Source of the DNA: Diphasiastrum complanatum
Taxonomy: Eukaryota; Streptophyta; Lycopodiopsida; Lycopodiales; Lycopodiaceae
Assembly (NCBI GenBank): GCA_029204225.1
Contig: CM055097.1
Location: 3,876,620-3,940,619 of the forward strand
Direction: 5' to 3'
DNA: 64,000 bases
This document shows, piece by piece, positions 6,920-60,303 of the stretch. Every line of letters starts with the position of its first letter. Position 1 is the first letter of the stretch. The notes beneath the pieces were generated by a model, which searched no databases, was not told the origin of the DNA, and saw only the letters and a list, made by a program, of their open reading frames with translations. A program made the translations under genes and the position numbers.

Positions 6920-6939
6920 CTAACCATCAGGGAAGCTCC

Positions 6940-7835: not shown

Positions 7836-8337
7836 ACTGCTGCAGAGGATGTGTATAATCTACCATCTTCTACAAACATTGATACACTCATCATTCCGCT
7901 TATGATGATTGAACCTATTCCTATAGCTTGGTGCCCAGGAGAACCTAGCGTCTCTACAACCTATGTTTCGGAAGAAGGTATTCTTTCCGTAAATGATGTT
8001 GAAATGACGGATGAACATGTACTCCTTTATCTAGATGCCCAACATTATCCGCCAAAATCAATTCCATAAGAGATCAAGTCACCAGGGCCTTTGGCTCACG
8101 TCCAACTGACCTCCAATATACCCAACACAACAACTTATAGACCAAAACCAAAGATATATACATGGGACGTGTATCCGGATGAAGTCTGGGATACAATAAA
8201 TGATGACATGATAAGAGAGGGGGCAACACCGCCCCCTCCACAACCTCGAAAACCTCGATTACAAAAAACCAAAATTATTGATACAAAATTAACCGAGCGT
8301 CAAAAACAGATGCACGAGAAATTAACCTATCAAGCTA

Positions 8338-9329
8338 TTGTCTGCACAGACAAAAGACATACCCTCCGATCACGCTTCCACATCTGGTAGCACATCCACA
8401 CAAGTGATTCCCAAAGTTCTGGGCAACTTTGTGGAACCAGCTTTTGATCTACCAAGCAAGTTTAAGGACTTTACACTTGATGACATAGTCATTCAGCTGC
8501 CACAACCACAAAGGGAACCTACAAAAGTTTCCCAATCCTTTGAAGGCCCAGCCAGAACCATAGAGTTAAATCTCAAAGATCCTCCTAAGGATGTGGATCG
8601 CATTGTTCATGTCGGAGCCCACCTCACGCCAGGTCAACTTCTTGATCTAGAAACCTTACTTCACAAATACAGGGATGTATTTGCATGGAATTATACTGAA
8701 ATGAAAGAAGTCCTACCTGAAATAGCGGTCCATACTATTCCTTTAGAGGAGAACACTAAGTCTATTCCAACTAAGCCATACCGAGTTTATCGCGAGCGGA
8801 TCGATGAAGATATTAAGAAATTGCTGGATGTTGGCTTCATCTATGAAGTCCAACATACTGATTGGGTATCACCCATTGTGGTAGTTCCCAAGAAAAATGA
8901 CAAGCTTTATATCTGCACCGATCTTAAGAATCTTAACGCAGTTACAAAAAAAGACCATTTTTCCTTACCCTTAACTACACAAATCCTTGAGAAAATGGCA
9001 GGAGTTGAAGCTTTCAACTTCTTGGATGGGTTTAGTGGCTATTTTTTGGTACAATTGCTCTAGAAGATAGACACAAAACTGCGTTTGCAACAGAAAACGG
9101 CGTTTATGCTTATAATGTCATGCCTTTTGGCTTATGCAATGCCCCTTCAACGTTTCAAAGGGTCATGCAAGTGGCCTTCCAAGACTTGTTACATAGGATT
9201 GTCGAGATCTATCTTGATGACCTAGGTGTCCATTCCTCCACGAACAAGCACCTCGAAGAACTAGAAAAAATCTGCATTCGTTGTCGTAGGTTTGGAATCT
9301 CACTAAACCCTGAGAAATGTCAAATCTAG
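8338..9329 (+). pseudogene. Gypsy element 1 reverse transcriptase, disrupted
   Basis: Copies element RNA into DNA. Visible RT blocks in order: FAWNYTEMKEVLPEIAVH, KLLDVGFIYEVQ, WVSPIVVVPKKN, DLKNLNAVTKKDHF, FLDGFSGYF, then after a one-base frameshift near 9060 MPFGLCNAPSTFQRVMQ and the catalytic IYLDDLGVHS. The YLDD box is intact. A stop follows KCQI at 9327. The conserved RICVDL block reads YICTDL, with the usual Val changed to Thr. There is no true ATG at 8338; this is an internal segment of a polyprotein. Confidence 0.9.
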
Positions 9330-9401
9330 GTAACCCATGGGATTGTCCTGGGACATATCATTTCAAAGAATGGTATTTCCACATATTTTTCAAAGATCAA
9401 A

Positions 9402-9941
9402 GTGATAGTTGAGATGCCTTTACCTGTAACAGTAAAGGAAGTTTATATGTTCCTCGACCACACTAACTATAACTGCATCTTTATAATCGATTATGCCGAT
9501 AAGGCACAACTCATTTATTTAGTTGTGGTAGACCCTAGATGGACTGAGGAGCGCATCAAAGCTTTTGAGGAGTTAAAAACAGCGCTCACAACAGCCCCCA
9601 TACTTCGTTCCCCAGACTACACTAAGGAATTTTATGTGCATACCGACGCAAGTAAGTATGCCATAGGAGGTCTTCTTGCACAACCGGACAAATATGGAAA
9701 GGATTTTCCAATCCGTTTCTTGAGCAGGCAACTGGTGTTTGCTGAAGTAAGCTATACAACAACAAAGAGAGAAACATTGGCCATGGTCTACGTTGTACAA
9801 CAACTAAGACATTATTTATTAGGCCAGACCTTTTCCTTCTACGCAGACCATCAAGCCTTGTTATATATTGTTAATAAATCTTGTAAAACGGGACATATAG
9901 CTCGATGGCTATTAATACTCGAGGAATTCAATTTCGAGTAG
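9402..9941 (+). pseudogene. Gypsy element 1 connection and RNase H domain
   Basis: Continues the RT with the palm-to-RNase H connection (VKEVYMFLDHTNYN, usually FLGHTNYYR) and RNase H: FYVHTDASKYAIGGLLAQ with the first catalytic Asp, FLSRQLVFAEVSYTTTKRETLAMVYVVQQLRHYL with the Glu, and ADHQALLYI with the next Asp. It ends at a stop where the sister copy continues FCVVVWKGTQ. RNase H removes the RNA strand during reverse transcription. Confidence 0.88.
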
Positions 9942-10109
9942 TCATCAGGAAAGAACGGCCGATCATCTTTCTCAACTTCCTAATCCTGAAAAGGAAGATA
10001 CACCAGTAAACGACGATTTTCCTGATGCATGTCTGTTTTAGATTGATGCCACACCCTATGGGCTGAGGAAATCACTCAGTTCCTAAACACAGGCCGACTC
10101 AAAGAAGGC

Positions 10110-10799
10110 ATGAGTACGGTAGCAAAAAGAAAAATTTTGCTAAAAGCAACACCCTTTCAGCTCATAACAGGACAGTTATACAAAAGGGATGCTGACGATA
10201 TTATACTCAGGTGCGTTTATGAATCTGAGATATGTCCTATCATATCTCAGGCTCATGAAGACATTGGCGACGGTCACTTCTCGGCTGAAGCGACTACTAA
10301 AATCATCCTTCGAGTGGGCTTATGGTGGCCATCCCTGTTTAAGGATACCTTTGCTATCATTAAAACATGTGATGTCTACCAACGAGCCAAGAAAAATACA
10401 AAAGCCGACTTCACACCGTTGACACCCATTATAGAAGGCGAAGCCTTCCATAAGTGGGGTATCGACTTTGTTGGACCCATCAGTCCAGCAACAAAAAGTA
10501 CTCAAGCCCGTTATATCCTAATAGCAACCGATTATGCCACTAAATGGGTTGAGGCACGTGCAACAAAGGACACCACTGCGAAGACCGTAGCGTGTTTTCT
10601 TTATGAAAATATTATTATGCGCTTTGGCTGTCCAATTGAGCTTGTTGGTGACCGAGGCACTCACTTCTTAAATGAAGTGATCGAAAATCTCCTTCGCCAT
10701 TATCTTGTTGTTCATCGAAAAGTACTTCGTACTATCCTCAATGTAATGGCCAGGCAGAATCCACCAACAAGACGATTTGTAAGATTTGAACCAAGATAG
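10110..10799 (+). pseudogene. Gypsy element 1 integrase, frameshifted
   Basis: Inserts element DNA into the genome. The zinc-binding region (GHFSAEATTK ... CDVYQRAKKN) has lost one of its two Cys (CDVC in the sister copy). The catalytic core shows FHKWGIDFVGPIS with the first Asp and ELVGDRGTHF with the second. The third acidic residue (AESTNK in the sister copy) is lost by a frameshift near 10730. Remnants of the C-terminal region run to about 11010, including IWAYRTTPKKATGWVTPFH in another frame. Confidence 0.88.
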
Positions 10800-11010
10800 T
10801 AGAAACAACCTGATCAAAATTGGGAAACCAAACTATTCTCTGCTATCTGGGCGTACCGCACAACTCCCAAGAAGGCCACTGGATGGGTTACCCCATTCCA
10901 TCTCGTATATGATCAAGAGGCAGTGATGCTTGTTGAATTCTTGGTACCATCCTTGAGAGTCATGAAAGCCTTCTCCACGGATCTATGTGAGAAAGCTACC
11001 ATTGAACTTC

Positions 11011-21510: not shown

Positions 21511-21869
21511 ACTATGTTTAGATCAACTCCAAATTGTGTTGAGGACCAAGGAGAGTAGGAAGCTTCAAGTAAGATCTAGGCAACCCTTACTTAGTTTGGG
21601 GAGGGAACTCTCGGTTGATTCATCCTCATATCAAGGTAACCTCTTAGACTTGCCCAAAACCTATGACACCTCAATTTTATACCATGGCTTTTAAGTGTAC
21701 CAACTAAATAAATCCCCCCCCCTTTCCGGTTAGACTCGTGCCTACGTGGCAACACCAAGGGGTACTAGGCGTTTCTCTAGGCTCGACCGTTGAGCGTGTC
21801 CCAGGGCTGGGAAGGGAGAAGGGAAGAAAGGAAATATAGGAGGAGAGGAAAAGGAATTAACATCTGGCT

Positions 21870-21887
21870 ATGCCGGCAGCGGTATGA
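21870..21887 (+). promoter_or_regulatory. Five-codon upstream ORF in the RING gene leader
   Basis: An ATG at 21870, out of frame with the main start, reads MPAAV then TGA, 25 nt before the main ATG at 21913. If the mRNA starts upstream of it, such a uORF would lower translation. Transcript start not known. Confidence 0.35.
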
Positions 21888-21912
21888 TCGTAGCCTAAGG
21901 AAAGAAGCGGGC

Positions 21913-22692
21913 ATGCCAGCAGCAGCCGAGAGCAGACCAGTACGTGGGCAAAATGATCCAGAAGAGATTCCTGCTGGGGCAGCCACCCCTCCTGATGAGG
22001 AGGAGGATGGGAAGCAGCAAGTTGATAAAGATTCTCAGTTTCATGCTGCTGGAGATGGCTCAGCTTCTGAATGGAGTAATAGATCTGGGGATTTTGATTG
22101 TAACATCTGTTTAGAGCTTGCTCGAGATCCCGTTGTCACCCTATGTGGCCACCTTTTCTGCTGGCCATGTCTCTATAGATGGATCAATGTCCATTCTCTC
22201 GGCCAGGATTGCCCTGTGTGCAAATCCTGGGTTGAAGAGCACCATGTCATACCGCTTTATGGCCGGGGTAGGGTGGTTGCTAAGGATGAGAACCTCAAGG
22301 GCTTTCTTGAGATTCCTCGCAGGCCACAGGGGCGGCGGATGAGGGTACGTCATCGTATGGAACACTATGAGCACCGTGAGTTCATTGGCTCCAGGAGAGC
22401 AATTGTTCCTACGAGAGCCAGATTTGGACATATCATGCTTTCTGCTGGGATAGGTCTTTTCCCAGCTCTATTTGGCCTTCACTTGCATGAATTTCCTGAC
22501 ACTGCAGATACCCTTAGCGAAGATCCAGGATTTCATCTTGGGTTCCCGAATACTCTTAGCCATGTCCACCTGCCACTGCCTTTCAATCTCGTTGCTGCTT
22601 TACCAGCGATTGGCTACCATCACGAAATTATTGTCTCAAGGCTCTTTCTGTTTCTTGGCTGTTTTGCCATTATAGTGATTCTCCTCTTTTGA
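21913..22692 (+). CDS. RMA-like: RMA/RNF5-like membrane-anchored RING E3 ubiquitin ligase
   Basis: A 259-aa single-exon gene. The C3HC4 RING finger spans residues 63-103 (C63, C66, C78, H80, C83, C86, C100, C103; core CNICLELARDPVVTLCGHLF), followed by CPVCKSWVEEHHVIPLYGRG, the hallmark of the RMA family. The C-terminus ends in a ~20-residue hydrophobic segment (FLFLGCFAIIVILLF), a tail anchor. Family members sit in the ER membrane and ubiquitinate ER or secretory clients with a UBC partner. The ~60-residue acidic N-terminus is poorly conserved. I chose ATG 21913 as the first in-frame ATG; the frame is open further upstream but without ATG. Length agrees with Arabidopsis RMA1-3. It has all zinc ligands and no stops, and is the best-preserved host gene here. 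Lack of introns fits the family but does not exclude a retrocopy. Confidence 0.93.
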   Translation: MPAAAESRPVRGQNDPEEIPAGAATPPDEEEDGKQQVDKDSQFHAAGDGSASEWSNRSGDFDCNICLELARDPVVTLCGHLFCWPCLYRWINVHSLGQDCPVCKSWVEEHHVIPLYGRGRVVAKDENLKGFLEIPRRPQGRRMRVRHRMEHYEHREFIGSRRAIVPTRARFGHIMLSAGIGLFPALFGLHLHEFPDTADTLSEDPGFHLGFPNTLSHVHLPLPFNLVAALPAIGYHHEIIVSRLFLFLGCFAIIVILLF

Positions 22693-40984: not shown

Positions 40985-42405
40985 GTTAGATACTGGATCC
41001 CCTAGTCAGAGGTTAGGCCATAGTCGCGGGTCATCCCGCCTTTCCTCTATGAGCCCTAAGTGAGCTTTTTAGTTACCTTGACCAGTTGTCTTCCTCGCAT
41101 TAGGATAGGGTCTTACAGCGCTTGAGGGCTCGACGCGAGGCTCGTAGCTCCTCCCGATTGGTTGAGTACACATCATCGACCGAGGAGATTCAGTCCACTC
41201 CTTGTGTAGACCAGTCACATGTTTCCCTATATAGAAGCTCTTGGAAAGGCAAGATAATGGATTTTAAAGTATCACTTGCCGGTCAATCTATCACGGAAGT
41301 TTTAGTTCAGCATGCTTATCTTCACAATGAGCTCAACATTCATGATTTGAATCCAAATGATAGAAGAAAATGCAATTGTAAGTTTTCAGATTTAATTTCT
41401 TTTAAGGTTAGCATTTTCTTTAAATTATATTTTTCTTGTGATATTTTTGTTGGTTTTGCAGATTTGTATCCATCAAATTTCATTGAATGGCAAACAGTTC
41501 AATCGATTGCAGGAATAATCGATGTCATACATTCAGATATCGGTATTTTACAATATAAAGGTCGTTCTCCAAAATCACTTTTAGAGTCAGGAGTTTTCTT
41601 TTATGATCACATCTATTTTTCTGATAAAAATGGTCTAGTAGGTAGATTAGAGCCATATCCTCTACCAAATTTTTCGAGTAAGGAATGGATTTCTCCTGAT
41701 GCAGCAATTTCAAAAAGTTTTTGATCTAGGCTATATATTGATATTCAAAGTATATTAAAATGTAGCACTGGATCAAAGAATAATAGATTAAGTTGGTATC
41801 TACCTTTTAATATTTTTGTTGATTTTTTTTCCAAATGCAATGTTCGGAGAACGAAAACAATGTTTATTTGTAAGGACTTGACTACTAAAATAATCGCCGA
41901 GTTGTTGGATGATGGTTGGGATACAAAACAAAATCAGCAAGTTGAGTGCAAAGTATGTTACTCATCCATGACATTTAGATATCACATCGAAAAACAAATG
42001 CTCACTTTGCTGCTGTATTATAGAAGATGGATTAAATCCAAAAATGTTTGGAAGCCACTTGATTAAGATTTTGTTATAAACCCTCAAGCGCAACTTCAGA
42101 TAACAATGAAAAGAAATGACAACATTTTTGCAATGGTTGAGGTTGAGGAAGATTGGTGTCTCAATGACATTCGATCAGAACTAGACATGCTGCAATTCGA
42201 TCTACCTCAGTACTATCAATTTCGATTGAATGGTGTAAAGGTACGTTATGCCATGTAAAAATATTTCTTTTTTTCTATTTCTAAGTGAATCAGTTTCATA
42301 AAATATATTAACTGAAACAATTTCTCTTGTGCAGGTAAGAGTAAGGCAGAAAGGGCATATAAAATGCAAAGATATTGGAACATCCATCGAAATTGAAGAT
42401 CCATA
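40985..42405 (+). pseudogene. Unknown intron-containing gene, copy 1, two in-frame stops
   Basis: The 5' part (40985-41240) matches 50905-51120 (GHSRGSSRLSSMS; ARREARSSS; STEEIQS), with a frameshift before 41120. Coding then runs 41122-41377, an 84-nt intron (GTAAGTTTTC...TTTTGCAG, 41378-41461), 41462-42240 in the same frame, a 94-nt intron (GTACGTTATG...TTGTGCAG) and a last exon 42335-42405. Single stops interrupt at 41722 (TGA) and 42064 (TAA), each followed by long open frame. The C-terminus (VEVEEDWCLNDIRSELDMLQ, FRLNGVKVRVRQKGHIKCKD) looks like a compact beta-grasp-type fold, which is only an impression. I recognise no family. Orderly introns with consistent phases say this was once a true gene; it lies convergent to the protease-like gene at 43092. 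Confidence 0.55.
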
Positions 42406-42429
42406 GATTATGAGCTATGGAATTTTGTA

Positions 42430-42656
42430 TTATATGTAATACAATTTTTTGTATACATCATCTTTGAAAATATATGAACCACTTTTTCTATAAGGCTCTT
42501 TCATTTCTATGATCTTTGTTTTCATGGTGCAAAACACAATGTAATTGCAATTGGATAATATGAGTTCTCGATAACAAGATTCATTGTCTCCTATAGGAAA
42601 TGCATTATCTCCATTGGGGAGATCTTCAGTCACTTGAATTCCAGTAACCACTACAA
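42430..42656 (-). pseudogene. Partial duplicate of the last exon of the protease-like gene
   Basis: The minus strand near 42650-42560 (CCCAATGGAGATAATGCATT) matches exon 4 of the neighbouring gene at about 43240 (CCCAATGGAGATAATGCACT) with drift beyond. Likewise 42934-42975 resembles the last exon of copy 1 (GAAATTGAAGAT). The pair of convergent gene ends therefore seems to have been duplicated in tandem. Confidence 0.55.
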
Positions 42657-42710
42657 TCAGATATCGAATCGATGCTTGCCCTTGTTGAAGTCTCGTATAT
42701 ATCGGTTGTA

Positions 42711-42930
42711 TTTTTTGTCTTCATTGCCTTGGTCTGTATTGTCCTTGTCTTGGCATATTTGGATATATTCAGATGATGATCTGATCAAAGCTTTGCTGCA
42801 ACAAATCTAAATGAACTAATGTCGCATGTTTGGATTGGTTGTGACAAAGGTTCGATCAGATCATCATTCTGAACTTATCCAAAAAAAACCATGGTAAAGA
42901 CAAGGCAGACCAAGGCTATGAAAAACAAAC
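42711..42930. repeat. 220-bp near-perfect foldback (inverted repeat)
   Basis: Arms of about 100 nt: 42711-42812 pairs with 42830-42930. Matching blocks are GCCTTGGTCTG / CAGACCAAGGC, TTGTCTT / AAGACAA, GATGATCTGATC / GATCAGATCATC, TTTG / CAAA and CAACAAATCTAAA / TTTGGATTGGTTG. The loop is ~17 nt. It lies between two convergent genes. It could be a palindromic MITE or, if transcribed, a long hairpin RNA precursor. Confidence 0.82.
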
Positions 42931-43091
42931 ATGTCGGAATACCGTAGAAATTGAAGATGAATGAATCATAACCTCATTTGATAAGAGAAAAAAAAAACAA
43001 GTAAGAACAACCATAGAAAAACTATAAATATATTTCTATTAAAATTTTCTGTACATGTGTCTCATCCACATCAAGTGAGACGAATATTTGA

Positions 43092-44117
43092 TCAGTATCG
43101 ACTATCTATGATCTCTAAATCCATTTCTCCAGTTGGAAGTAGCTTGGGTGGAGAACACTCGGCCACTGCAACTGGACATGAATTTTTGATCACAAGCTTT
43201 ATGGTCTCCTTCCTGAAGTGCATTATCTCCATTGGGAAGACCTTCGGGCATTTAAACTGAAAAAAAGAACATAAACACAGTTAAATGTAATTAATCAAAG
43301 ATCAATTAATAGAAATTTGAATATAAAAAAAACAAAAACATAGGTAAAAGCTATTAATCGAAGATTACCTCTTCCAGATTTGGAAGTCCATCTTGTAGTG
43401 CAAGCCAATTAAAAAAGTGTTTGGCATTGCATACAGTATACCAACCACAACTAACAGAATCAACTTGCTGGGAGGGTTGCAGAATCCAAATTTTAATATT
43501 ATGAGATATCGGATCAACGCGCAGGATGTTATAATTAAATCGACAACGGACACAAGCGCGCGTCGAATTGATATCCAAAAAATATTGTTTTAATATTGGA
43601 TCAACGTGCACGTTATGAAAAGAAACCAAACAATAACTACAAGGGCGCATCAAACCGATATTGATAAATTTTTACCTCTGCATCAACAATTTTTAGTTTC
43701 GTATATGCTTTTGTATTTGGTATTGGAAAGGGCCAATATTTTCTGGATATGGCTCTTGGCAATTGTGTGTGTGTGTGTGTAATAGAGTTCATCTTTAAAC
43801 AAACTGGATTACGCACACCCTCATCATTGACGTATAAGGACAACACATATAAGATCCAATAATCACTGCAATCAGAAAACAATAAATTTATGAGAATCAA
43901 TGTGAAAACAAAATTCATATGAAAAATTCACATAATAAAATTTGAAAAAAGACACTTACTTTGTTATGTATGACAGCACGAGAATTGGAGTCCCCAGTCT
44001 GACGTGTTGGAGCATATCATCGTGCAGACTTTTGAAATCAGGGAAATGAAATGCAGCCATGAATTGAAGGGGAAACAATGCTACATCTATAAACAATGGG
44101 GTCTGGAAAAACTCCAT
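43092..44117 (-). CDS. Four-exon gene resembling a Ulp1/adenain-type cysteine protease
   Basis: The minus-strand exons 44117-43960, 43865-43676, 43467-43369 and 43256-43092 join with GT-AG introns (94, 208, 112 nt) in consistent phase, with no stops, into ~203 aa starting MEFFQTPLF. Exon 2 has YWILYVLSLYVNDE (family: HW with hydrophobic strand) and CLKMNSI (family: DS). Exon 3 opens QVDSVSCGWYTVC, a good match to the Q-x5-C-G active-site loop of C48/adenain-like proteases. The catalytic His position reads Tyr (NDYW) and the Asp position Asn, so activity is doubtful. A coherent frame over four exons suggests selection until recently. It lies 35 bp downstream of the histone-like ORF on the same strand. 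The family call rests on motifs only. Confidence 0.5.
43505..43575. repeat. 71-nt inverted-repeat unit A
   Basis: Left arm GATATCGGATCAACGCGC, 35-nt spacer, right arm GCGCGTCGAATTGATATC. In intron 2 of the protease-like gene. Confidence 0.85.
43592..43662. repeat. 71-nt inverted-repeat unit B
   Basis: Left arm AATATTGGATCAACGTGC, spacer, right arm GCGCATCAAACCGATATT. 16 nt from unit A in the same intron. Confidence 0.85.
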
Positions 44118-44152
44118 CTAGTACTAAATGGCCCCACCTCCTACATTGTCAC

Positions 44153-45168
44153 CTAAACTAATTCACCTGTATCTAAACTAGAAAGGGGAAGACCAGCATT
44201 GGTCTTCGGCATCCTAAAACTGTATCGAGGAACTAAAGCTTTAAGATACGTGTTTAACAATTGGTCATACTGTACATATTGAGGAGTATTTACAAAGGCA
44301 AGTGTAGGGGGTGACGGAAGTAATACAGATAAACCAGAAAAAGAATTGTCATTCAAAATTGATTCTACATTTACATTAACAAAATCATCTAAATCATTTC
44401 CTAGAACAGGTGGAGGGGAACCAATATTTATGGGGGTAGGAGGAGGAGATTTAGGAGGAGATTTATTAGGAGAGAAAGATTTAGTAGGAGAAGGTAAAGA
44501 TTGAGTTCTGGGAGAAGGAGAAGGAGACTTAGGAGGAGAATTGGGAGGAGAATGCCTCGAAGAAAGAATCTCATCTAGAGGAAATGTCTTGGAAAAATCC
44601 CTCGCTTTATTTGGAGGGTCAAGAGACCTCCTCTTCTTTGAAACACTCCTGTTCTGTATACGAATAACAAGCCGGGATGCTTGAGATTGCTTTTGTTTTC
44701 TCCTCTCTGAATCTTGTTTTGGAGGAGAGGAGTGAGTGGGTCTAAAGTATTCTACAAATTTGTCATATGTGTCCCAAAGCCTGAACACAATGTTGAAATC
44801 CTTGGGCATGATGGTCACCCTCTTGGCATGGATAGCTGCAACAATAGTATTTGAAAAAAAAATTTCACCTGAAAATCCTCATATGCAGTGTGCAGCGCCT
44901 CAATTGTTGTTACCGTCCATCTCACATCTGTAGATAAACTTCTTGTAACCTGTCTGATGGATCTCTGTATGTGAGCTTTCGGAATCAGAAGATTATTTGT
45001 CTTTTGTAGCTTCCGAATATCCTTTAGCCAGGGTGGGTCTCTTCTTCTACTCCTTGGCCTAGGAGGAGGTGGTGGTGGACGAGGTGGTGGTGGTGGATTT
45101 TCCTGACCCGCTCCTGAGATTGGTATTCCACTAGGGTGGCCTTGTGTTGTTTGTTTGGTCCACGCCAT
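44153..45168 (-). pseudogene. CENP-A/CenH3-like histone-fold protein with Pro/Ser-rich tail
   Basis: ATG 45168 opens MAWTKQTTQGHPSG, an H3-like N-terminus (MARTKQT in H3), then a Pro-rich stretch. The histone fold follows: IRKLQKTNNLLIPKAHIQR (alpha-N/alpha-1) and SLSTDVRWTVTTIEALHTAYEDF (alpha-2), and after a frame change AIHAKRVTIMPKDFNIVFRL (alpha-3). NLLIP and RWT are CenH3-like rather than canonical H3. The frame changes at a nine-T run (44851-44859 on plus) exactly where loop length would be canonical with two fewer bases. Alternatively a 33-nt GTGAAA...TTGCAG segment could be spliced, but that does not restore frame. The second frame (44818-44153) continues past the fold with ~180 basic, SPP/KSPP-rich residues, unlike any CenH3, and ends at 44153. 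Function inferred at most as nucleosome or DNA binding. Confidence 0.75.
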
Positions 45169-45204
45169 TAATGTCCACGAAGAAGGAGAACCCAAGATAA
45201 GAAG

Positions 45205-45231
45205 TCAGGTCGAGTGCGTCGAACCGATACT
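45205..45231 (-). repeat. Orphan right arm of the 71-nt unit family
   Basis: GTGCGTCGAACCGATACT (45214-45231) matches the right-arm consensus, but the expected left arm 53 nt upstream, overlapping the histone-like start codon, is not recognisable. Confidence 0.5.
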
Positions 45232-45254
45232 TGAGCCCAACCAAACCGATAGCT

Positions 45255-45325
45255 GGTAGCAGATGGGCGCGCATGAGTAATAGCGGATGGAAGGAAGTTT
45301 GTTTCGAGTGCGCTGAATCGCTATG
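45255..45325. repeat. 71-nt inverted-repeat unit C, degenerate left arm
   Basis: Right arm GTGCGCTGAATCGCTATG; left arm GGTAGCAGATGGGCGCGC matches unit D's arm at 12 of 18. In the leader of the histone-like gene. Confidence 0.65.
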
Positions 45326-45382
45326 CATGGATGTAGAGAACTGTAAGAACATTAAGCAAAAAAATTTCAGCATCGTCCATCA

Positions 45383-45393
45383 GTATATATAGG
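45383..45393 (-). promoter_or_regulatory. TATA box of the histone-like gene
   Basis: The minus strand reads CCCTATATATACTG about 215 nt upstream of ATG 45168. Unit C of the hairpin family lies in the implied leader. Confidence 0.6.
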
Positions 45394-45701
45394 GAAAATT
45401 CGAAATGATTGCAAACGTGGTGGGTTGGATGTACGAGGTTCGAATTACGATGATGATTACTCCGAGTCTTGTCAATCAAATCAAACTAAATATCCATCTA
45501 TCATCAAAATGATTAGTCGATATTGAATAAACCAAAATTAATTTCAACTAAAGTATGGTCACATCTACAATTAAAGCTACAAAAGTATGGTCACATCTAC
45601 AATTTATTTTTGAAATTGACAAGGTTAAACTATAAATATCTGACCTTTGTTATATCCAGTCATTATAATTTCGAAAAATTCGAACGGCCATTATTTCACT
45701 C

Positions 45702-45772
45702 AATAGCCAATCGACGCGCATATATTGCATGTGAAAACCAAAGAAGTTATTCTCGCGTGCTGAACCGATATT
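45702..45772. repeat. 71-nt inverted-repeat unit D
   Basis: Left arm AATAGCCAATCGACGCGC, right arm GCGTGCTGAACCGATATT, in the spacer between the divergent promoters. Confidence 0.85.
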
Positions 45773-45915
45773 GGAAAATAATATGAATGATCAAAGCTTG
45801 ACTCGATAGATTCTCCTTAGCTTTGGACAATATGAAGAGTCTACCGAATCAAGGTTTGATCATACATAATGGAGTCCAATAGTTTCCAAAATTTCAAAAA
45901 AAAATTTGTTCTTGC

Positions 45916-45986
45916 AATAGCAATTCGACGCACGCAGTCCAAATGAAGAATAACCATCTTTTGCCAGGCGCGCTGATCCGATACCT
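45916..45986. repeat. 71-nt inverted-repeat unit E
   Basis: Left arm AATAGCAATTCGACGCAC, right arm CGCGCTGATCCGATACCT, in the spacer between the divergent promoters. Confidence 0.8.
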
Positions 45987-46193
45987 GATACCCAAAAAAA
46001 CTATATTGGAGCATCTTATGAACGGCTAATGAAAATGTTCTGAATGAACATTATCTCAAAAGAAAAAATGTCATCTTTACTCTGCTTAAATAGGACGAGA
46101 GATTGTAATATTTCTTCTCGTACATGTTTTTCAATGATGTCCATTTATCATTTGTTTATTATTTATTTAATGATTATTCAAGGAGGCTATTGA

Positions 46194-46305
46194 TTGAATA
46201 TTTAATGTATTCGGACGCATGTACAGATTCTAGAGTCAGGGCTAATTATGACTCTTTGAATCTAGTGATAGATTAGTTAATGTATTCCGGCGTAAGTACA
46301 AATTT
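46194..46305 (+). repeat. Direct repeat pair flanking a small inverted repeat
   Basis: TTAATGTATTCGGACGCATG (near 46200) recurs as TTAATGTATTCCGGCGTAAG about 75 nt on. Between them AGATTCTAGAGTCA pairs with TGACTCTTTGAATCT. Lies 75-180 bp upstream of the TATA box at 46378, so it may be promoter architecture. Confidence 0.6.
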
Positions 46306-46377
46306 GCCTCACTCTGATTGGTGGGTGTTTCTCAATTCGTTATTTGACAAATGTATGACTATGATCAACAAGAATTG

Positions 46378-46396
46378 GCTATAAATATGGGCACCA
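46378..46396 (+). promoter_or_regulatory. TATA box of the gene at 46665
   Basis: GGCTATAAATATGGGCACC, a strong plant TATA context, about 285 nt before the ATG. The implied leader contains units F and G. Confidence 0.7.
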
Positions 46397-46466
46397 CTTG
46401 CCCTATTTTGATTCCTTGATCTTTTATTTTGGACTCACTAGTCTTTTTGTTTTCTTTCTATCTCGC

Positions 46467-46537
46467 GATATCGAATCGACGCATGTCTTTCCAAACAGTG
46501 CATGGTCAGATTCATTCAGATGCGCTGAATCGATATC
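46467..46537. repeat. 71-nt inverted-repeat unit F
   Basis: Left arm GATATCGAATCGACGCAT, right arm ATGCGCTGAATCGATATC. In the leader of the gene at 46665. Confidence 0.88.
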
Positions 46538-46584
46538 AACCACTTCTGACGTGTGCTCGCGGCAAATTTCAATCTCATCCTAAC

Positions 46585-46655
46585 AATATTGGATCAACGT
46601 GCGTACTCTTGTTCATTCCTATACCAATATCATTCTGTCGCATTGAACCGATATC
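46585..46655. repeat. 71-nt inverted-repeat unit G
   Basis: Left arm AATATTGGATCAACGTGC (identical to unit B's left arm), right arm TCGCATTGAACCGATATC. Ends 9 nt before the ATG at 46665. Confidence 0.88.
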
Positions 46656-46664
46656 AGGTTCAAT

Positions 46665-47261
46665 ATGGCTAGCTCTTCCATGTCCTCAGATAACAAACTT
46701 CTGGATTTTTTTAATGCCAGTGACATTTCATCTGAGAAATTAGTGTATTTTGCTAGTATTTTTTTTGCTCCCTTCGATATCGGTAAGCTAGTTTATGAGA
46801 ATCATTATGATTTAATTTCTCTTTTTGATAATTTTTCTCAGACTATTAGTACTCCTATTCAGAAAATAGATAGTTTTTGTTTCGTTCATTTTCAGGACCT
46901 TGTGCATTCCCAACCATCCTCTAAGCATAAACACCTGCATGATCATTTCAAAAAATATATATATCGTGATATCCACAAAAGAATATGTCGCCTTCTTATC
47001 AAAGGAATGACATTTGTCTTTTACATATCTACTGAAATTCCAGATAATGAGTCTGTTGAATCTTCAACTATTCCATTGATCGAGGCATCTGCACCTGCTC
47101 CAGTTGATGTAGATGATGCAGATACTGATACAGGGGTTGAAGCTGAAGCATCTATGGCTTTAGATTATCAAAAAACTCTCCTTTGTTCTATAATCCTCTC
47201 TGATTCTCGTCCATCTGCATCTCCTGTTAATCAATTAACTCTACTCGATGTTTCCTTATAG
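46665..47261 (+). CDS. Unrecognised 198-aa protein of the island
   Basis: ATG 46665 sits in a good context (caatATGGct) behind a strong TATA box. The protein starts MASSSMSSDNKLLDFFNASD, has a Phe/Ile-rich first half (LVYFASIFFAPFDIGKLVYE, HFKKYIYRDIHKRICRLL) and a strongly acidic second half (PAPVDVDDADTDTGVEAEAS). No domain, signal peptide or clear membrane span. Transcribed away from the histone-like gene with a ~1-kb shared promoter region. After the stop the frame stays open with further plausible sequence to ~47370 (NNESYISFNDIKDVLNLRED), so the stop may be a mutation. Function unknown. Confidence 0.5.
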   Translation: MASSSMSSDNKLLDFFNASDISSEKLVYFASIFFAPFDIGKLVYENHYDLISLFDNFSQTISTPIQKIDSFCFVHFQDLVHSQPSSKHKHLHDHFKKYIYRDIHKRICRLLIKGMTFVFYISTEIPDNESVESSTIPLIEASAPAPVDVDDADTDTGVEAEASMALDYQKTLLCSIILSDSRPSASPVNQLTLLDVSL

Positions 47262-48093
47262 TTTATAAATAACGAAAGTTATATTTCATTTAATGATATA
47301 AAAGATGTTTTGAATTTGAGAGAGGATAAAATCCTCTCATTTTTGCTCAAAATTTATCTGAATTTCTAACATTGTTGATTACTCAGAATGCCTTTCGAAA
47401 TATCGTAATACTTGGTGAGTTTTTAGCTTGATATCTAAATTGTGCTCTTCTATAAAACCACTGAAAAAGTTGAACTAAATATTTATTTCTTAAATTGTGT
47501 CCTCCATGATTTGTTGCTCTATGAAATGATCCCCTTGCTTGCCAATAAGATTTTTTCATGCCTTGTGATGACCAGATACTTAAGCTCCCATATTTCTTTG
47601 CAAAATAAGTTGCATGATGAAGAAAGATGTGCTGCGAACAATAGTTTTAATTAGTTACATCAGTAGAAAAAAATATAAACATGAATGAGATAAATACCAA
47701 ATAATGATATAGATTAGCACCATGCAAAATCACCATTGTCTATTCCCCAACAATCATGTACAGATTTTACAAATGTGGTGCAATGATTTTGCAAAGTTCT
47801 CATATCTTCTGATGATAGGTTTTCTTTCCTGATAACACCTATAAGTTTGTCTAAGTTGGTCCACTTGTCCCTTTTCCACTCGATTACTTCCTTCTAGTGT
47901 TTGTGTGGCTTGAATAATTTCTCTCTAAATTTCGTATATGACACTTGATTCTTTGCATGTGTGATTGGATAAAAATCTTCTTGCTTTAGCACCTCCAATT
48001 GATGGCTTATTAGAACGTTTTCTTTTTTCTCTGAGAGTCTATCACTTTTTTCAATCGTGACATTCCCTTTATGTAGTCCTGCATTTGACAGAA
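47262..48093. other. Gene-free interval
   Basis: AT-rich sequence between the unknown gene and the gypsy remnant. Short ORFs on both strands have no recognisable features. Confidence 0.4.
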
Positions 48094-50290
48094 CTATTTC
48101 CAACCTCCTAATTGCTGCTTTAGGATGCGTTGTTCATTCGTCCATTTGGAAACTACAACTACTTTGTAGATTAAGTGTGCTTTGTTAGCAAAATAAAAAA
48201 TAAAGCACCGATAGTAGTTGGTGTGGCCAAGGAAAGAGTAAACTTCGCGTATCGTACGCGGTTCTGGTAGATTTTGAATGATAAGGATCTTTTCGAGGTC
48301 AGTGGCAATGTCATTTCGGAAAATACTATGTCCTAACACAATACCATGTGTTACCCAAATCTGGCATTTTTCAAGATTAAGGGAGATGCCGAAGCATTGA
48401 CATTGGATAAAAAAAATTTCGACCACAGACAGATGGCGTGTTTCTTCTGAATGTGCACCTAAATCGTCCAAGCAAACCTCTAGGGTATCGCTCATCTACT
48501 GAGAAAAGGCAGCTTGCATAACATGTTGGAAGGTGCTAGGGACATTGCAGAGCCCAAAAGGCATGACTTTCCAGCAGAAGGTTCTCCATTCTGTGGCAAA
48601 AGTGGTTTTATGTTGATCTTCTTCAGCAATTTGGATCATATTGTATCCACTAAAGCCATCTAAGGAGTAAGCCTCATCTCCTGCTAGATTTTCTAAGATG
48701 GATTCTTCGAAAGGTAATGGAAAATGATCACGTTCAGTGATGGCGTTAAGTTTCTTAAAGTCGACACAGATTCGGAGTTTTCCATGGAACGATGACAATT
48801 GGGGAGACCCACTCAATATGTTCGATTTCATAGATAAATCTCGCATCTAAGAGGCGTTGTAATTCTTCTTTGATCTTGGCCTTATAGATTGGATTGCATC
48901 TGTATGGACGACTAGTAGTTGTGGCCTCGCACCCGGTTTAAGCGGAATACGATGCACAACTACCTGGAGTGAGACGCCTTTCATGTCTTTATAGGTCCAC
49001 GCAAAGAAATGTTTATATTTTCACAGGAGCTTTTCAAACTGTCTGCGTTGTTTGCGATTGAGATGAGCCCTGACATGAACAATATATTCGTTGGTTTCAT
49101 TTGGCTCACTCAAAGAAAGGGTGATAGTTCGCGCAGGGCATAGGACGAATTACCATTTGGCTCACGTTGAGCTTGGGGTAGTTGGATTGTGACATCCTCA
49201 ATCATATAGTCCTTAAAGTATGCGAGTACATCATGGGCTGGAGATTCTAGGGGGGCCTTATCTTTCACCTGCCGGGATGGTGATTGGGAACATTCGGTGG
49301 TTGGCGTAGGGACAGAGGCACTCGCAGGAACTTCTCTAACAGTTGTGAAGTCACCAGGTGGCTGAATTTGAAGTGGTTTCTTCATCTTTTCTTTCATAGC
49401 ATGGCCACGTGGAGGCTTCAGCTATGGGGAGGTGTGTGGATGAGGAACGGGTGGTACGTCATGGAGGATCTCGTCATCAATTTGAAATATGGTCTCCTCC
49501 TCACAGAGATCCCATGGATAGTTTGGGCGTTTGACACGGTAGAATTTTGTATCAGGCTTTTCAACTGTTACCTTGGAAACTGATTCTACCTTGGAAGCAT
49601 GTTGCGGATAGGCCTAAGTGGAAGTGCCTCCATATAATTGAGGATCTGAATATCAAAAATGTCCAAATCTTCTGGGCAATTCTGAATTCGTCAAACATTC
49701 TCGTCATCTACGAATAAATCCTCTGATTCATTAGTAGGTAGCCATGCAACATTTAGTAACTCATCATTGTGTGAAAGAATATTAATAAGATTGATATTGA
49801 TGATAGGTGTATCAAGATCAGGTAATTGATCAGGATCGATCTGGAGTGGAGAAGTACAATCATCCTGATGTTGAGCATAATAATCGGCATTCACACAATC
49901 AATGGTAGCTAAATTGTGACTCTAGTTTATGATATCAGTAGATTTAACAACAATGACCTTTTTCGTGGCTGGACTGGTATGGTCAAACACTGAGTTGGTG
50001 GTCGAGGACCCTTCATCATGAATGCATGCAGGTTTGAGTTTGCCCGTTGAATCAATGGTGACAGAACTGTCACGATTTCCAAAAGTGGCTCGGCCTTTGC
50101 TCCAGTCATGAACGAATCTTGCATTGGTGAGCCATGGACGACCAAGTAATGCTCTCTTTATATAATCGAAATTTGGAATGTTTGTGCAGCGATCCATCGT
50201 GGGGCGTTCTCCCACACATGACGAATACATGTATGCGTATTCCCACGGTACGCCAGCAGTACTTGAGTTATTGGAGAGGCAGGGCATGCA
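48094..50290 (-). mobile_element. Ty3/gypsy remnant, minus strand (protease to RT)
   Basis: Read from 50290 down: protease C-terminal region (LLGRPWLTNARFVHDWSKGR, 50287-49922), an acidic linker (49894-49691), the pre-RT region (DVTIQLPQAQREP, 49397-49110), RT start (FFAWTYKDMKGVSLQVVVH, ~48990), RT core (KLRICVDFKKLNAITERDHF, MPFGLCNVPSTFQHVMQ, 48846-48496) and LEVCLDDLGAHS with the connection (FLGHTNYYRCF) to 48094. The catalytic box reads CLDD instead of YLDD. RNase H, integrase and LTRs are absent. Related to, but clearly a different subfamily from, gypsy elements 1 and 2. It appears inserted in the 41-51 kb island. Confidence 0.88.
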
Positions 50291-55868: not shown

Positions 55869-56840
55869 ATGAGCAACCGTTGTTTTATTTGTGGCAAAAC
55901 TGGCCACTTCATGGTTGACTGTAAAGTTAAGAACCAATACCATGCGGAGTGCCTAGACTGTGTTTGCAAACACAGTTTCAAAGACTGCCCTAATCAACCT
56001 AACAAGATCCTTCCAGCACGTCATATATCATTCGAACCTGTTAGAGTTTTAACTAGAGCACAACGCCGACAACAAGAACAGCAGCAAAACAATGCAAAAT
56101 CAGCTGACCCGAATAGAAGCCACTTGACAGCTTCCACATTACCCAAAGACTACCCAGACCCAAACGTGGAACAAAGGCAATACAATGAATTTTGAGAGGA
56201 GTTTTTGCGAGAGGAAGGACATACAAAAAGTCTGTTATCCACTCAAATCCCTGACAAAGAGCAATCTCTACAGGGACTTGAAGTATTTGCTAACCTCCTG
56301 CAAGCTCAACTCACTATGCCATTCCATAGTGCGCTAAAATCTTTCACCGGGCTTCAACGATATATCCATCGTAGTTTTCAGCTGCCTACTATTACTGATG
56401 AACAGCGGAAAACAAAAGAGATTCCTGAAGTTTTCCAGATTCCTATGAATCTGCTGAATATAGGTGTTGCTAAAGGGACTCGCATCACCTTGCCTTTGTC
56501 CTATAAAGACTATCCCGCAAAATCTGCTATCCTTGATAGCGGATCAGGCGTAAATATAATGGCTTTGTCCTTGGCAAAGTCATGGGGCTTCCATACCCTC
56601 GATCAACCACGATACAAACTTTGCATGGCTGATCAACGAGTTATCGACCCTGTTGGTCATTTATCAAATGTTAAGGTTCGAATAGCAGGTGTCAAATTTG
56701 TGATCGGTTGTGTCATCTTAGACTTACCAGAAGATGCCAATACTTATAAACTCCTTCTTGGTACACCCTGGCTCCAGATGGCAGGTGTTGTCCAAGATTG
56801 GAAGCATAGAAAAATCACCTTTGGCAATCACGACAAATGA
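55869..56840 (+). pseudogene. Gypsy element 2 third zinc knuckle and aspartic protease
   Basis: CFICGKTGHFMVDC (CX2CX4HX4C, ~55884) and a Cys-rich tail CLDCVCKHSFKDC are followed by the protease region. One TGA at 56193-56195 separates the two open segments. The protease has AILDSGSGVNIMALSLAKSW (catalytic Asp), VGHLSNVKVRIAGVKFVIGC and LLLGTPWLQMAGVVQDW. It ends at 56838 where the next segment continues in the same direction. It processes the polyprotein. Confidence 0.88.
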
Positions 56841-57604
56841 GTCACTGTTGACTCAACTGGCCATGTCAAGTCTGCTAAAGTTTATGATGATTGGTCATCA
56901 GCAACATATGATGAATCAGATAGTGTCTCCATCCAACCCAAAAGCCACTATACGAGTTCAACGAACATAATCAATTGGGGGCATGCACTAGTCACTGTGG
57001 ACTGTGCTGATTCCAATCGATGTCTTATCGAAACCGCTACAGAAGTTGTGGATATTGTCCCATCTTCTACAGACATTAATACACCCATCATCCCACTTAT
57101 GATGATTGACCCGATTCCTATAGCGCGGTGCCCAGGAGAACCTAGCGTCTCACCGCCCATGTTTCCGAAGAAGGTATTCTTTCCATGGATGATGTCGAAA
57201 TGACAGATGAACATGTCCTCCTTTATTTAGATGCCCAACGTTATCCGCCAAAAGCAATTCCTTAGGAGATCAAGTCACCAGGGCCGTTGGCTCATGTCCA
57301 ACTAACATCCAAAGTACCCAACACACAAGCGTATAGGGCCAAACCCAAAGTATACACATGGGATGTGTATCCAGAGGAAGTTTGGCATACAATTGATGAC
57401 AATATGATAAGTGAGGCAACAACACCGCCCACTCAAAAACCTCAATAGCCTCGGTTACAAAAAAATAAAATTATCGATACAAAATTAACCGAGCATCAAA
57501 AATAGATGCGTGAGAAGCTTAAGCAACCAATTAAGCCCTTGTCTAAAGACACGGAAACCAAACCATCAGACCAAGCTTCCACGTCCGGTAGTGATTCAAC
57601 ATAG

Positions 57605-58558
57605 ATGATTCCCAAAGTTCCAGAAAACTTTGTGGAACCACCTTTCGATCTTCCACGAAAATTTAAAGATTTCACACTGGATGACGTTGTTATCCAGTTA
57701 CCACAGCCACACCGGGAACCTACAACAAGTTCCAACTCTTTTGAAGGACCAGCTAAAACGATGTCGTTAAACCTTAAAGATCTTGACAAGGAGATGGATC
57801 GACTAGTTCATGTTGGTGCACACCTTTCGTCCGAACAACTTTCTGATCTGGAAACTTTACTTCAAAAATGCAGGGATGTATTTGCATGGAACTATACAGA
57901 AATGAAAGGAATTCCGCCTGAAGTAGTGGTTCATACGATTCCTTTGGAAGACAATGCTAAGCCTATTCGGACTAAACCTTACAGAAGTAACCGTGAGAGA
58001 ATCGATGAAGACATTAAGAAATTGTTGGATGCTGGATTCATATATGAAGTCCAACATATTGATTGGGTATCACCCATTGTGGTTGTACCCAAGAAAAACG
58101 GCAAACTTCGTATCTATGTCGATCTCATGAACCTTAATGCAGTTACGAAGAAAGACCATTTTCCTTTGCCTTTAACGACCCAAATCTTAGAGGAAATGGT
58201 AGAAGCTAAAGCTTTCAGCTTCTTGGATGGATTCAGCGGTTATTTCCTTGTTCAAATAGCCCTTGAAGATAAACATAAAACGGCCTTTGCCACAAAGAAC
58301 GGGGTTTATGCTTATAATGTCATGTCTTTTGGTTTATTTAACGCCCCTTCAACGTTTCAGAGGGTCATGCAACTGGCCTTCCAAGACCTGTTACATCGGA
58401 TTGTCGAGATTTATCTCGACGATCTGGGTGTACATTCCTCAGCCGCTACGCACCTTGACGCACTAGAGAAAATCTTCATTCGATGCCGTAGATTTGGAAT
58501 CTCGCTAAACCTTGATAAATGTCAGATATGGATAACCCATGGGGTTGTACTCAGGTGA
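57605..58558 (+). pseudogene. Gypsy element 2 reverse transcriptase
   Basis: 317 open codons: FAWNYTEMKGIPPEVVVHTI, IDEDIKKLLDAGFIYEVQH, WVSPIVVVPKKNGKLRIYVD, LNAVTKKDHFPLPLTTQILE, FLDGFSGYFLVQIALEDKHK, FGLFNAPSTFQRVMQLAFQD and the catalytic IVEIYLDDLGVHSS. All RT blocks are present without interruption, so the RT core could be functional. A frameshift at the end (VVLR) passes into the connection domain. The segment has no own ATG; it is part of the pol polyprotein. Confidence 0.92.
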
Positions 58559-59362
58559 TGGTATTTCTATCGACCCGTCAAAAATCAAGGTTATATTTGA
58601 AATGCCCTTACCTACAACAGTGAAGGAAGTTTACATCTTCCTCGATCGTACAAATTATTATCGCATCTTCATAATCGACTATGCCGGCAAGGCACGCCTC
58701 ATGTATTTAGTTGTGGTAGATCCTCGATGGACCAAAGAATGCATTAAAGCCTTTGAGGAGTTGAAAACAACCCTTACCACGGCACCCATACTCCGCTCAC
58801 TAGATTATACGAAAGAGTTTCATGTGCATACTGACGCAAGTAAGTATGCCATTGGAGGTCTTCTTGCACACCAGACGAGTATGGCAAGGATTTCCCAATA
58901 CGTTTCTTGAGCAGACAGCTAGTGCCTGCTGAAGTCAACTATACAACCACCGAATGAGAAGCATTGGCGATGGTCTATGTTGTACAACAACTAAGACATT
59001 ATTTACTAGGCCAGACCTTTGCATTCTACACCGAAAATCAAGCCCTATTATATATTGTTAATAGATCCTATAAAACGGGACGTATAGCTCGATGGTTGTT
59101 GATACTAGAGGAATTTGATTTCTGCGTAGTCGTTTGGAAAGGGACCCAACATTTCATGGCAGATAATCTTTCCCGACTATCTAATGCTGAAAAGGCAACT
59201 GCACCAGTCAACGATGATCTTCCTGATGCATGTTCTTTTCAGATTGATGCTACACCCTTATGGGCTGAGGAGATCACTCAGTTCCTAACAACAGGTAGAA
59301 GGCCTGAGTACGGTGGCAAAAATTTTTTTTTTTGCTTAAAGCAGTGCCCTTTTAGCTCATAG
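58539..59362 (+). pseudogene. Gypsy element 2 connection and RNase H
   Basis: Connection: VKEVYIFLDRTNYYRIFIID. RNase H: EFHVHTDASKYAIGGLLAHQ (Asp), then after a frameshift at ~58880 FLSRQLVPAEVNYTTTE (Glu, read across a TGA at 58956), YTENQALLYIVNRSYKTGRI and FCVVVWKGTQHFMADNLSRL, with the ADNLSRL end motif. Degrades the RNA strand of the hybrid. Confidence 0.88.
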
Positions 59363-59514
59363 CCGGACAACTTTATAAACAGAATGTTGACGGTATTATC
59401 CGATGATGCGCTTATGAATCTGAGATACGACCTATCATATCTCAGGCTCATGAGGGTATTGGCGGTGGCCACTTCTCTGCTGAGGCCACAACTAAGATTA
59501 TCCTTCGAGCAGGA

Positions 59515-60303
59515 TTGTGGTGGCCATCCTTATTTAAGGACACATTTGCTGTCATTAAAACATGTGATGTCTGTCAACCCGCCAAGAAAAATACAAAAGC
59601 AAACTTCACACCTTTAACTCCCATTATAGAAGGCAAAGCCTTCCATAAGTGGGGAATTGACTTTGTTGGACCGATCAGTCCAGCAGCGAAACATACCCAA
59701 GCCCGTTACATCCTAATAGCCACAAATTACGCCAGTAAGTGGGTTGAGGCTCGGGCAACAAAGGATGCCAACGCAAAAATTGTCGCTCGTTTTCTTTACG
59801 AAAACATTATTACATGTTTTGGCTATCCTATAGAGCTAGTTAGTGATCGCGGCAAACATTTTTTAAATGTTGTCATTTATAATTTACTATGCCATTACCT
59901 TGTCATTCACCGAAAGAGTACACCGTACTATCCTAGGTGTCATGGCCAGGCCGAATCCACTAACAAGACGATATGTAAAATTTTGACAAAGGTAGTTGAA
60001 ACCAGTCGTTCTGATTGGGAAACAAAACTTTTTTTAGCTATCTGGGCTTACCGCACCACCCCGAAGAAAGCCACTAGGTGGGTTACCCCTTTCCACTTAG
60101 TGTATGGTCAAGAGGCGGTAATGCCTATAGAATTCTTAGTACCTTCGCTAAGAGTCATGGAAGCTTTTTCTACAGATCTCTGTGAAAAAGCTACAATTGA
60201 GCAACAAGTCAAAACCAAGCTATTTACATTAGCCCAGTTATGCAAGACAAGACTTATATCTTACCATGCACAACTGGTTAACAAACGACACCAAAAGGCC
60301 TAG
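59515..60303 (+). pseudogene. Gypsy element 2 integrase
   Basis: Zinc-finger His residues lie upstream in another frame (GGHFSAEATT, ~59465); CDVCQPAKKN gives both Cys. The core has FHKWGIDFVGPISP (Asp), LVSDRGKHFLN (Asp) and HGQAESTNKTICKILTK (Glu), the complete DDE triad, then ETKLFLAIWAYRTTPKKATR, TPFHLVYGQEAVMPIEF and the C-terminal region to the TAG at 60301. Remnants of the GPY/F-like end (GDQVLFY) follow to ~60540. The best-preserved domain of the element. Confidence 0.92.

Follow-up and report, generated by a model that had tools for sequence, protein, structure and literature searches.

In the Mutator-like VANDAL transposons of Arabidopsis, VANC anti-silencing proteins bind short motifs of the non-coding regions, and in the portions of the reports considered here these motifs are family-specific, 8–9 bases long and arranged as tandem repeats (PMC5735166, PMC10398659); some VANC genes also include a Ulp1 domain, according to an excerpt of a further report (PMC13317346). 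The TNPA-like proteins of CACTA elements (En/Spm, Tgm) bind subterminal motifs and can block transcription, as stated in part of one account (PMC2613891). Short repeats interrupted by diverse sequence, for which an excerpted description proposes a mobile-element origin, are known as SIRC in Arabidopsis (PMC10342631). Here we analyzed a 64-kb stretch of the Diphasiastrum complanatum genome (C6:3876620-3940619, hereafter the window), in which 18-bp arms form inverted pairs, or units, around a centre of mostly 35 bp. The units belong to a high-copy plant DNA transposon with terminal inverted repeats, its superfamily being left open, and each unit probably represents a pair of putative binding sites for a protein encoded by the element.

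VANDAL elements have a Mutator-type transposase (VANA), a motif-binding protein that causes loss of DNA methylation, and a target-site duplication of about 9 bp; CACTA elements have the ends CACTA...TAGTG and a 3-bp duplication, and terminal inverted repeats without a target-site duplication are uncommon among DNA transposons. The element studied here resembles VANDAL in its high copy number and in repeated motifs of non-coding regions (here a promoter spacer, leaders and an intron-like stretch), and a C48-like motif seen by eye, for which Pfam was negative, recalls the Ulp1 domain attributed to some VANC genes in the excerpt. It differs in that 18-bp inverted pairs at 35 bp take the place of the 8–9-base tandem motifs that the cited portions give for VANC, that Pfam scans of partial copies gave no Mutator transposase domain, and that none of nine elements shows a target duplication. 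It shares with CACTA a repeated motif that is specific to the element and has both a GC-rich and an AT-rich part, as far as the excerpt describes it (PMC2613891). The differences are that its long copies carry internal sites (promoter spacer, leaders, intron), its ends read CATTAG, no 3-bp duplication occurs in the same nine elements, and no tnp2 domain was found. The element would work like the VANDAL and CACTA systems but lacks tested features of each, and was placed with neither. As with miniature inverted-repeat transposable elements (MITEs), two elements of about 1.5 kb (L027, L030) match three long copies only close to the ends; unlike MITEs, the 71-nt units are not mobile themselves, since no duplication flanks any of the seven in the window and interiors differ between positions. 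SIRC likewise place short repeats around diverse sequence and have a proposed link to mobile elements, but their repeats are direct in the excerpt available, in contrast to the inverted pairs at near-fixed spacing found here.

Units and arms in the window

Seven inverted pairs of the 18-bp arm, with the consensus RATATCGRWTCRRCGCRC, were confirmed at 43505, 43592, 45255, 45702, 45916, 46467 and 46585, where a sequence-only reading of the window had located them. The span of exactly 71 nt which that reading gave for every unit was correct for six; the unit at 45916 is 70 nt long (45916-45985, spacer 34), and its arms match at just 2 of 18 positions when it is forced to 71 nt. Its inventory of seven was accurate and incomplete, because a fifteenth arm (45214-45231) and a weak arm at 42660 had been missed. 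Its placement was broadly right, with two units in intron-like sequence (judged by eye), two in the spacer between two divergent genes and the others in the leaders of these genes. The arms are located as follows.

43505..43575, unit 1: arms 43505-43522 (plus) and 43558-43575 (minus), spacer 35; intron-like part of the minus-strand histone-like gene
43592..43662, unit 2: arms 43592-43609 (plus) and 43645-43662 (minus), spacer 35
45214..45231, minus strand, lone arm, remnant of unit 3: matrix score 24; directly upstream of the ATG of the minus-strand gene (45168)
45255..45325, unit 4: spacer 35; leader of the minus-strand gene
45702..45772, unit 5: spacer 35; between the divergent promoters
45916..45985, unit 6: spacer 34; arm types reversed relative to the other units; between the divergent promoters
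46467..46537, unit 7: spacer 35; leader of the plus-strand gene
46585..46655, unit 8: spacer 35; leader of the plus-strand gene, stopping 9 nt upstream of the ATG at 46665
42660..42677, plus strand, weak single arm: score 16.4; adjoins a duplicated stretch of the minus-strand gene

The arms were scored with a position matrix on both strands of the window. When the matrix omitted the tested unit, 13 of the 14 arms beat all other window positions, and the fourteenth was outscored by one site. The full matrix gave arm scores of 21–29 vs. maxima of 8.5–17.5 in 20 Markov shuffles, which places the arms far above the chance level that the sequence-only reading had named as a check. Across fifteen arms (the fourteen and 45214-45231), the information amounts to 0.74–1.95 bits per column in columns 1–18 and to no more than 0.58 bits in the flanking columns. 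All window arms scoring above 16 lie inside the transposon copy. The CpG observed/expected ratio is 2.25 in the arms vs. 0.53 in the window, and the differences from a reference arm comprise 47 transitions vs. 8 other changes when column 9 is excluded. Six of the seven left arms have A in column 9, where six of the seven right arms have T, and the 45916 unit is the swapped case; the units therefore have a direction. The same swap occurs in the listed copies of the unit 6 position from other loci.

A foldback with 51-nt arms at 45769-45881 adjoins unit 5 (RNA fold z-score −7.0) and is similar to a palindrome around TGATCAAAGCTT at 42720-42922, which is about 205 bp long, 73% self-complementary and MITE-like. 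A direct duplication (42546-42638 and 43167-43256, 75%) involves the apparent last exon of the histone-like gene, and the weak arm at 42660 adjoins it.

The transposon family

The element ends in an imperfect terminal inverted repeat of 35 bp (CATTAGGGG...GGGCCCTTT). In the 1.7447 Gb of genome searched, the common left end CATTAGGGGATATTAGAACTCAAAATGGGCCCTTT and the right end, reverse-complemented CATTAGGGGAAATATGGGCTCAAAATGGGCCCTTT, had 958 and 966 matches, respectively, with up to 2 mismatches, and the controls had 0. Paired ends delimit long elements of approximately 8.3 to 11.9 kb. Nine elements with both ends were inspected by eye, namely L010, L012, L027, L030, C2:22499800 with L061, C1:37350780-37353349, C2:66524905-66536223, C3:74360848-74372714 and C4:36332639-36341669; none has a target-site duplication of at least 2 bases, a single T being common in two, and no target consensus was evident among them. 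Matching inverted ends, many copies and short derivatives (L027, L030, L053/L061) identify a DNA transposon of the terminal-inverted-repeat type.

Twelve loci of 9.9 kb (L009-L020) were picked from the listed arm matches. Eleven of them and the window align across kilobases in blocks of mostly 80–94% identity (71–90% for L018), and L019 matches the others in short stretches only. The alignments revealed a constant layout of up to eight units per long copy, distributed over the divergent promoter spacer, two leaders and an intron. All eight positions are present in L011, L012 and L020, and the outermost units of L012 lie 2.7 and 2.4 kb inward from its ends. The copy in the window is decayed, as follows.

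41228..48123, transposon copy: both terminal repeats missing; blastn blocks of 79–94% identity to L009-L018 and L020

Besides its ends, this copy has lost one arm of unit 3, which is intact in L011, L012, L013, L014, L015, L016 and L020. The spacer of 34 at the unit 6 position is found in all eight copies assigned to it, the window copy included; an unassigned unit of L018 close to this place has a spacer of 35.

Centres, constraint and spacing

Copies share one centre sequence, with some divergence, at each of the eight positions, and the centres of other positions differ; no centre of one position was found at another among the copies compared. The sequence-only reading had described the centres as entirely different, and this is right between the units of the window, where the mean local score of 6.95 is a marginal excess over 6.41 in shuffled sequence (95th percentile 6.81); each centre is, however, common to the same position in other copies. 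Since the centres are position-specific and yet shared by the copies, the units are not MITEs in their own right, nor are they cassettes whose centres can be exchanged.

Outside CpG, the arms are constrained relative to the centres. Comparison of 70 of 75 assigned units, the five with a different spacer length being left out, showed that copies differ at 0.115 of arm sites vs. 0.200 of spacer sites outside CpG, and at 0.221 vs. 0.289 in CpG context.

The arm pattern (up to 2 mismatches) has 12,610 matches in the genome vs. 375 for the reversed control. The pair pattern, defined as two convergent arms with 20–50 bp between them, has 538 strand-counted matches (271 + 267), and both of its controls have 0. 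Among the 69 distinct places listed, counted by hand, the spacer is 35 in 59, 34 in 4, 36 in 4, 42 in 1 and 29 in 1. Convergent gaps in L009-L020 are 35 in 59 cases, 34 in 11, and 33, 36, 19 and 165 in one apiece, so that 71 of 74 pairs in the twelve loci have 34–36 bp between the arms. Six short-type loci gave 35 in 14 cases, 36 in 4, 34 in 1, 25 in 1 and one overlap; they include L054, a possible long copy whose centre equals that of unit 1. The wide variation of unit length that would have spoken against a fixed unit was not seen, the spacing being near-fixed. With a DNA helical repeat of 10.6 bp per turn, arm centres 53 bp apart are separated by five turns. Gaps between divergent neighbouring arms cluster as well, at about 15–16, 22–24 and 46–48 bp in L009-L020 and the short-type loci; this is partly inheritance, but perhaps reflects a second spacing rule.

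Short and diverged elements bear the same spacing. In a blastn comparison of L027-L030 with three long loci (L012, L015 and L020; 1e-4), the short elements L027 (1544 bp) and L030 (1514 bp) match only near the ends. They have units of their own, with spacers of 35 and 34 in L027 and of 36 and 34 in L030; additional single arms and a pair with a gap of 25 are present as well. Locus L028 is related to L030, and L029 is a relative, approximately 70% identical over 1.6 kb, with spacers of 35, 35 and 36. L053, obtained from the left-end search, is part of a 2484-bp element whose units have spacers of 36, 35, 35, 35 and 35. The first unit of the short L030 and L053 lies 0.4–0.5 kb from the left end. 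The centres in L027, L029, L030 and L053 are unlike any of the eight positions and the spacing is the same, which shows that arms and spacing recur where centres do not.

A less biased sample consisted of 30 loci taken from left ends (L031-L060), with 1.5 kb of element visible in each. Units were present within this 1.5 kb in four of them (L051, L053, L054 and L058, of which L054 and L058 share flanks), L034 has one arm, and 25 have none inside the element, an arm of L031 lying outside it. The sample is weakly informative because the first unit of L012 lies as far as 2.7 kb in. In the 2.6-kb element C1:37350780-37353349 (L035), the first 1.5 kb is free of arms, and this could be a short element without units.

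Genes and promoters of the element

The window copy retains the following genes and promoter elements.

44156..45168, minus strand, histone-like gene: H3 fold followed by a Pro/Ser-rich region; frame broken at a T run in the window copy
43092..43671, minus strand, downstream part of the histone-like gene: exons placed by eye; Gln...Ser-Cys-Gly motif
46665..47261, plus strand, divergent gene: early stop in the window copy
41257..42406, plus strand, left gene: two in-frame stops in the window copy; last exon by eye
47386..48123, minus strand, remnant of the right gene: greater coding capacity in L010 and L012
45384..45391, minus strand, TATA-like box of the histone-like gene
46380..46387, plus strand, TATA-like box of the plus-strand gene

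The histone fold is the sole element domain above the Pfam cut-off. Of the two window pieces that match Pfam Histone, one does so at 4.7e-11 and the other, at 0.00099, falls short of the family cut-off; in L015, whose frame stays open across the fold (L015 4611-5192, plus), the match reaches 9.1e-22. The best named plant match of the predicted protein is Syzygium CENH3 (39 of 84 positions, score 194), vs. 36 of 83 and a score of 172 for rice H3, suggesting an H3-like protein with CENH3-like features rather than clearly either. A 105-aa metagenome protein (P0073) also has a WLxDIRKLQK start and WD after the histone fold. In L012, the open frame continues from the Pro/Ser-rich region toward the part with the Gln...Ser-Cys-Gly motif, which we take by eye to be C48-like and which Pfam did not confirm. 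A Ulp1/C48 peptidase in this gene was considered and rejected, as Pfam returned nothing and a Protein Data Bank search just three chains at E of about 0.1. Units 5 and 6 sit between the TATA-like box of the minus-strand gene (45391) and that of the plus-strand gene (46380).

Weak Pfam matches below cut-off occur in other frames (e.g., RAP, Microcin, BLYB). A reverse-transcriptase match in L013 was set aside, being located in the first 630 bases, outside the element-aligned part. A viral origin gained no support from scans that reach close relatives only: the pair pattern, three window protein pieces and P0073 had no relatives among IMG/VR contigs. Elsewhere in the window, a retroelement region is present in two copies (6892-11005 and 56076-60200, 80% identical), related reversed fragments lie at 48.1–50.4 kb, where the transposon copy ends, and a piece of a RING-finger protein gene is found at 21790-22692.

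Proposed paired protein-binding sites and alternative explanations

The sharp borders of the arms, the near-fixed spacing with unrelated centres, the constraint on the arms and the lack of covariation together point to paired protein sites on DNA, and the confinement of the arms to one transposon family suggests an element-encoded binder. We therefore favor, as the probable explanation, that each unit is a pair of putative sites for a protein of the element, one of the roles that the sequence-only reading had put forward. Two 18-bp sites, 35 bp apart, would face each other on one face of the DNA, and a protein made by the element may occupy both as a single assembly and thereby mark the non-coding DNA of its own element. 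Such marking might keep transcription of the element on, in a VANC-like manner, or might ready the element for transposition and control its promoters, in a TNPA-like manner.

Several observations weigh against this explanation. The binder could be a host factor: besides the histone fold, Pfam found no DNA-binding or transposase domain in six frames of 39.9–48.3 kb or in L013. Nor did it find a transposase in exons of L010, L011, L012, L015 and L020, although these scans covered partial copies and a diverged transposase could escape them. For the plus-strand gene product, a search at E 0.001 gave no relatives, and two single-sequence structure models had pLDDT values of 39 and 33 and were unusable. 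The constancy of 35 is partly inherited, the copies being related, and the contrast in indel runs is modest (12.8 per kb in units vs. 18.5 in flanks, at four of eight positions). Raw arm divergence is barely under spacer divergence in units 1, 2 and 5, and the right arm of unit 1 diverges more than the spacers. L027-L030 had been selected for matching the pair pattern with spacers that fit none of the eight positions. Finally, the plus strand has an extra TATA-like box at 45631, upstream of units 5 and 6, so that transcription through both is possible.

The strongest competitor, which we regard as unlikely, is that the arms are sites of a host DNA-binding factor recruited by the transposon for expression or insulation. 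The position of the units in leaders and the promoter spacer and the lack of an element DNA-binding domain in Pfam beyond the histone fold would fit this idea. However, the high-scoring arms of the window (>16) are confined to the element, the 12,610 genomic arms are of the order expected from 960 elements with up to 16 arms each, and an 18-bp word is long for one host factor.

A function of the units as RNA hairpins within leaders and introns, another role suggested by the sequence-only reading, is improbable. The units at 43505, 46467 and 46585 do fold better than shuffled sequence (z −3.67, −2.32 and −2.10), whereas those at 43592, 45255, 45702 and 45916 do not stand out (z 0.37, −1.29, 0.40 and −0.22). 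Matching between the two arms of a unit is no better than between arms taken from different units (11.86 vs. 11.88 of 18; permutation fraction 0.56), also when G-U pairs are allowed (13.86 vs. 13.95; permutation fraction 0.68), and this absence of compensatory changes weakens the idea further. With respect to the TATA-like boxes, two units are upstream of those at 45391 and 46380 but downstream of the one at 45631. Arms without covariation, and the good folding of only three of seven units, suggest that the constraint acts on DNA. No known RNA family was found in the window at gathering thresholds.

Equally improbable is that arms and spacing were merely inherited from an ancient duplication and have no present function. 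The common layout of the copies, the decay of the window copy and the modest indel contrast are what such inheritance would leave, but it does not account for the lower non-CpG divergence of the arms (0.115 vs. 0.200 in the centres), the sharp fall of information at the arm ends or the return of the 34–36-bp spacing with unrelated centres. As for the proposal that the units are miniature transposons in their own right, or recombination sites whose centres can be exchanged, to which constant-length inverted arms around differing centres had lent some appeal, we consider it highly improbable, given that no duplication flanks any of the seven window units and that every position has retained its own centre throughout the compared copies; the sharing of centres across genomic copies, a check named by the sequence-only reading itself, counts against exchangeable centres.

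Going beyond paired binding sites for an element-encoded protein, we tentatively suggest that the transposon may be an undescribed kind of plant DNA element, with terminal inverted repeats, no target-site duplication, no Pfam-recognised transposase, and a gene joining an H3/CENH3-like histone part to a Pro/Ser-rich and a C48-like part. Its paired sites might be assembly points at which a complex made by the element, perhaps including its own histone, sets up a special chromatin on the element that serves either the escape from silencing or transposition. A search of literature titles gave, among its best matches, no plant transposon that carries a histone gene or paired sites of this sort.

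Plant transposons with site-specific anti-silencing proteins of their own have so far come from few families. The rigid arrangement found here, in which two 18-bp sites flank 35 bp and which is repeated up to eight times, presents a test case for the role of spacing and helical phase in recognition, and the family can show which cis-sequences short derivatives need to retain. If true, a transposon gene with an H3-like fold in an element whose ends lack a target duplication would be a separate surprise and could lead to an unassigned transposition mechanism.

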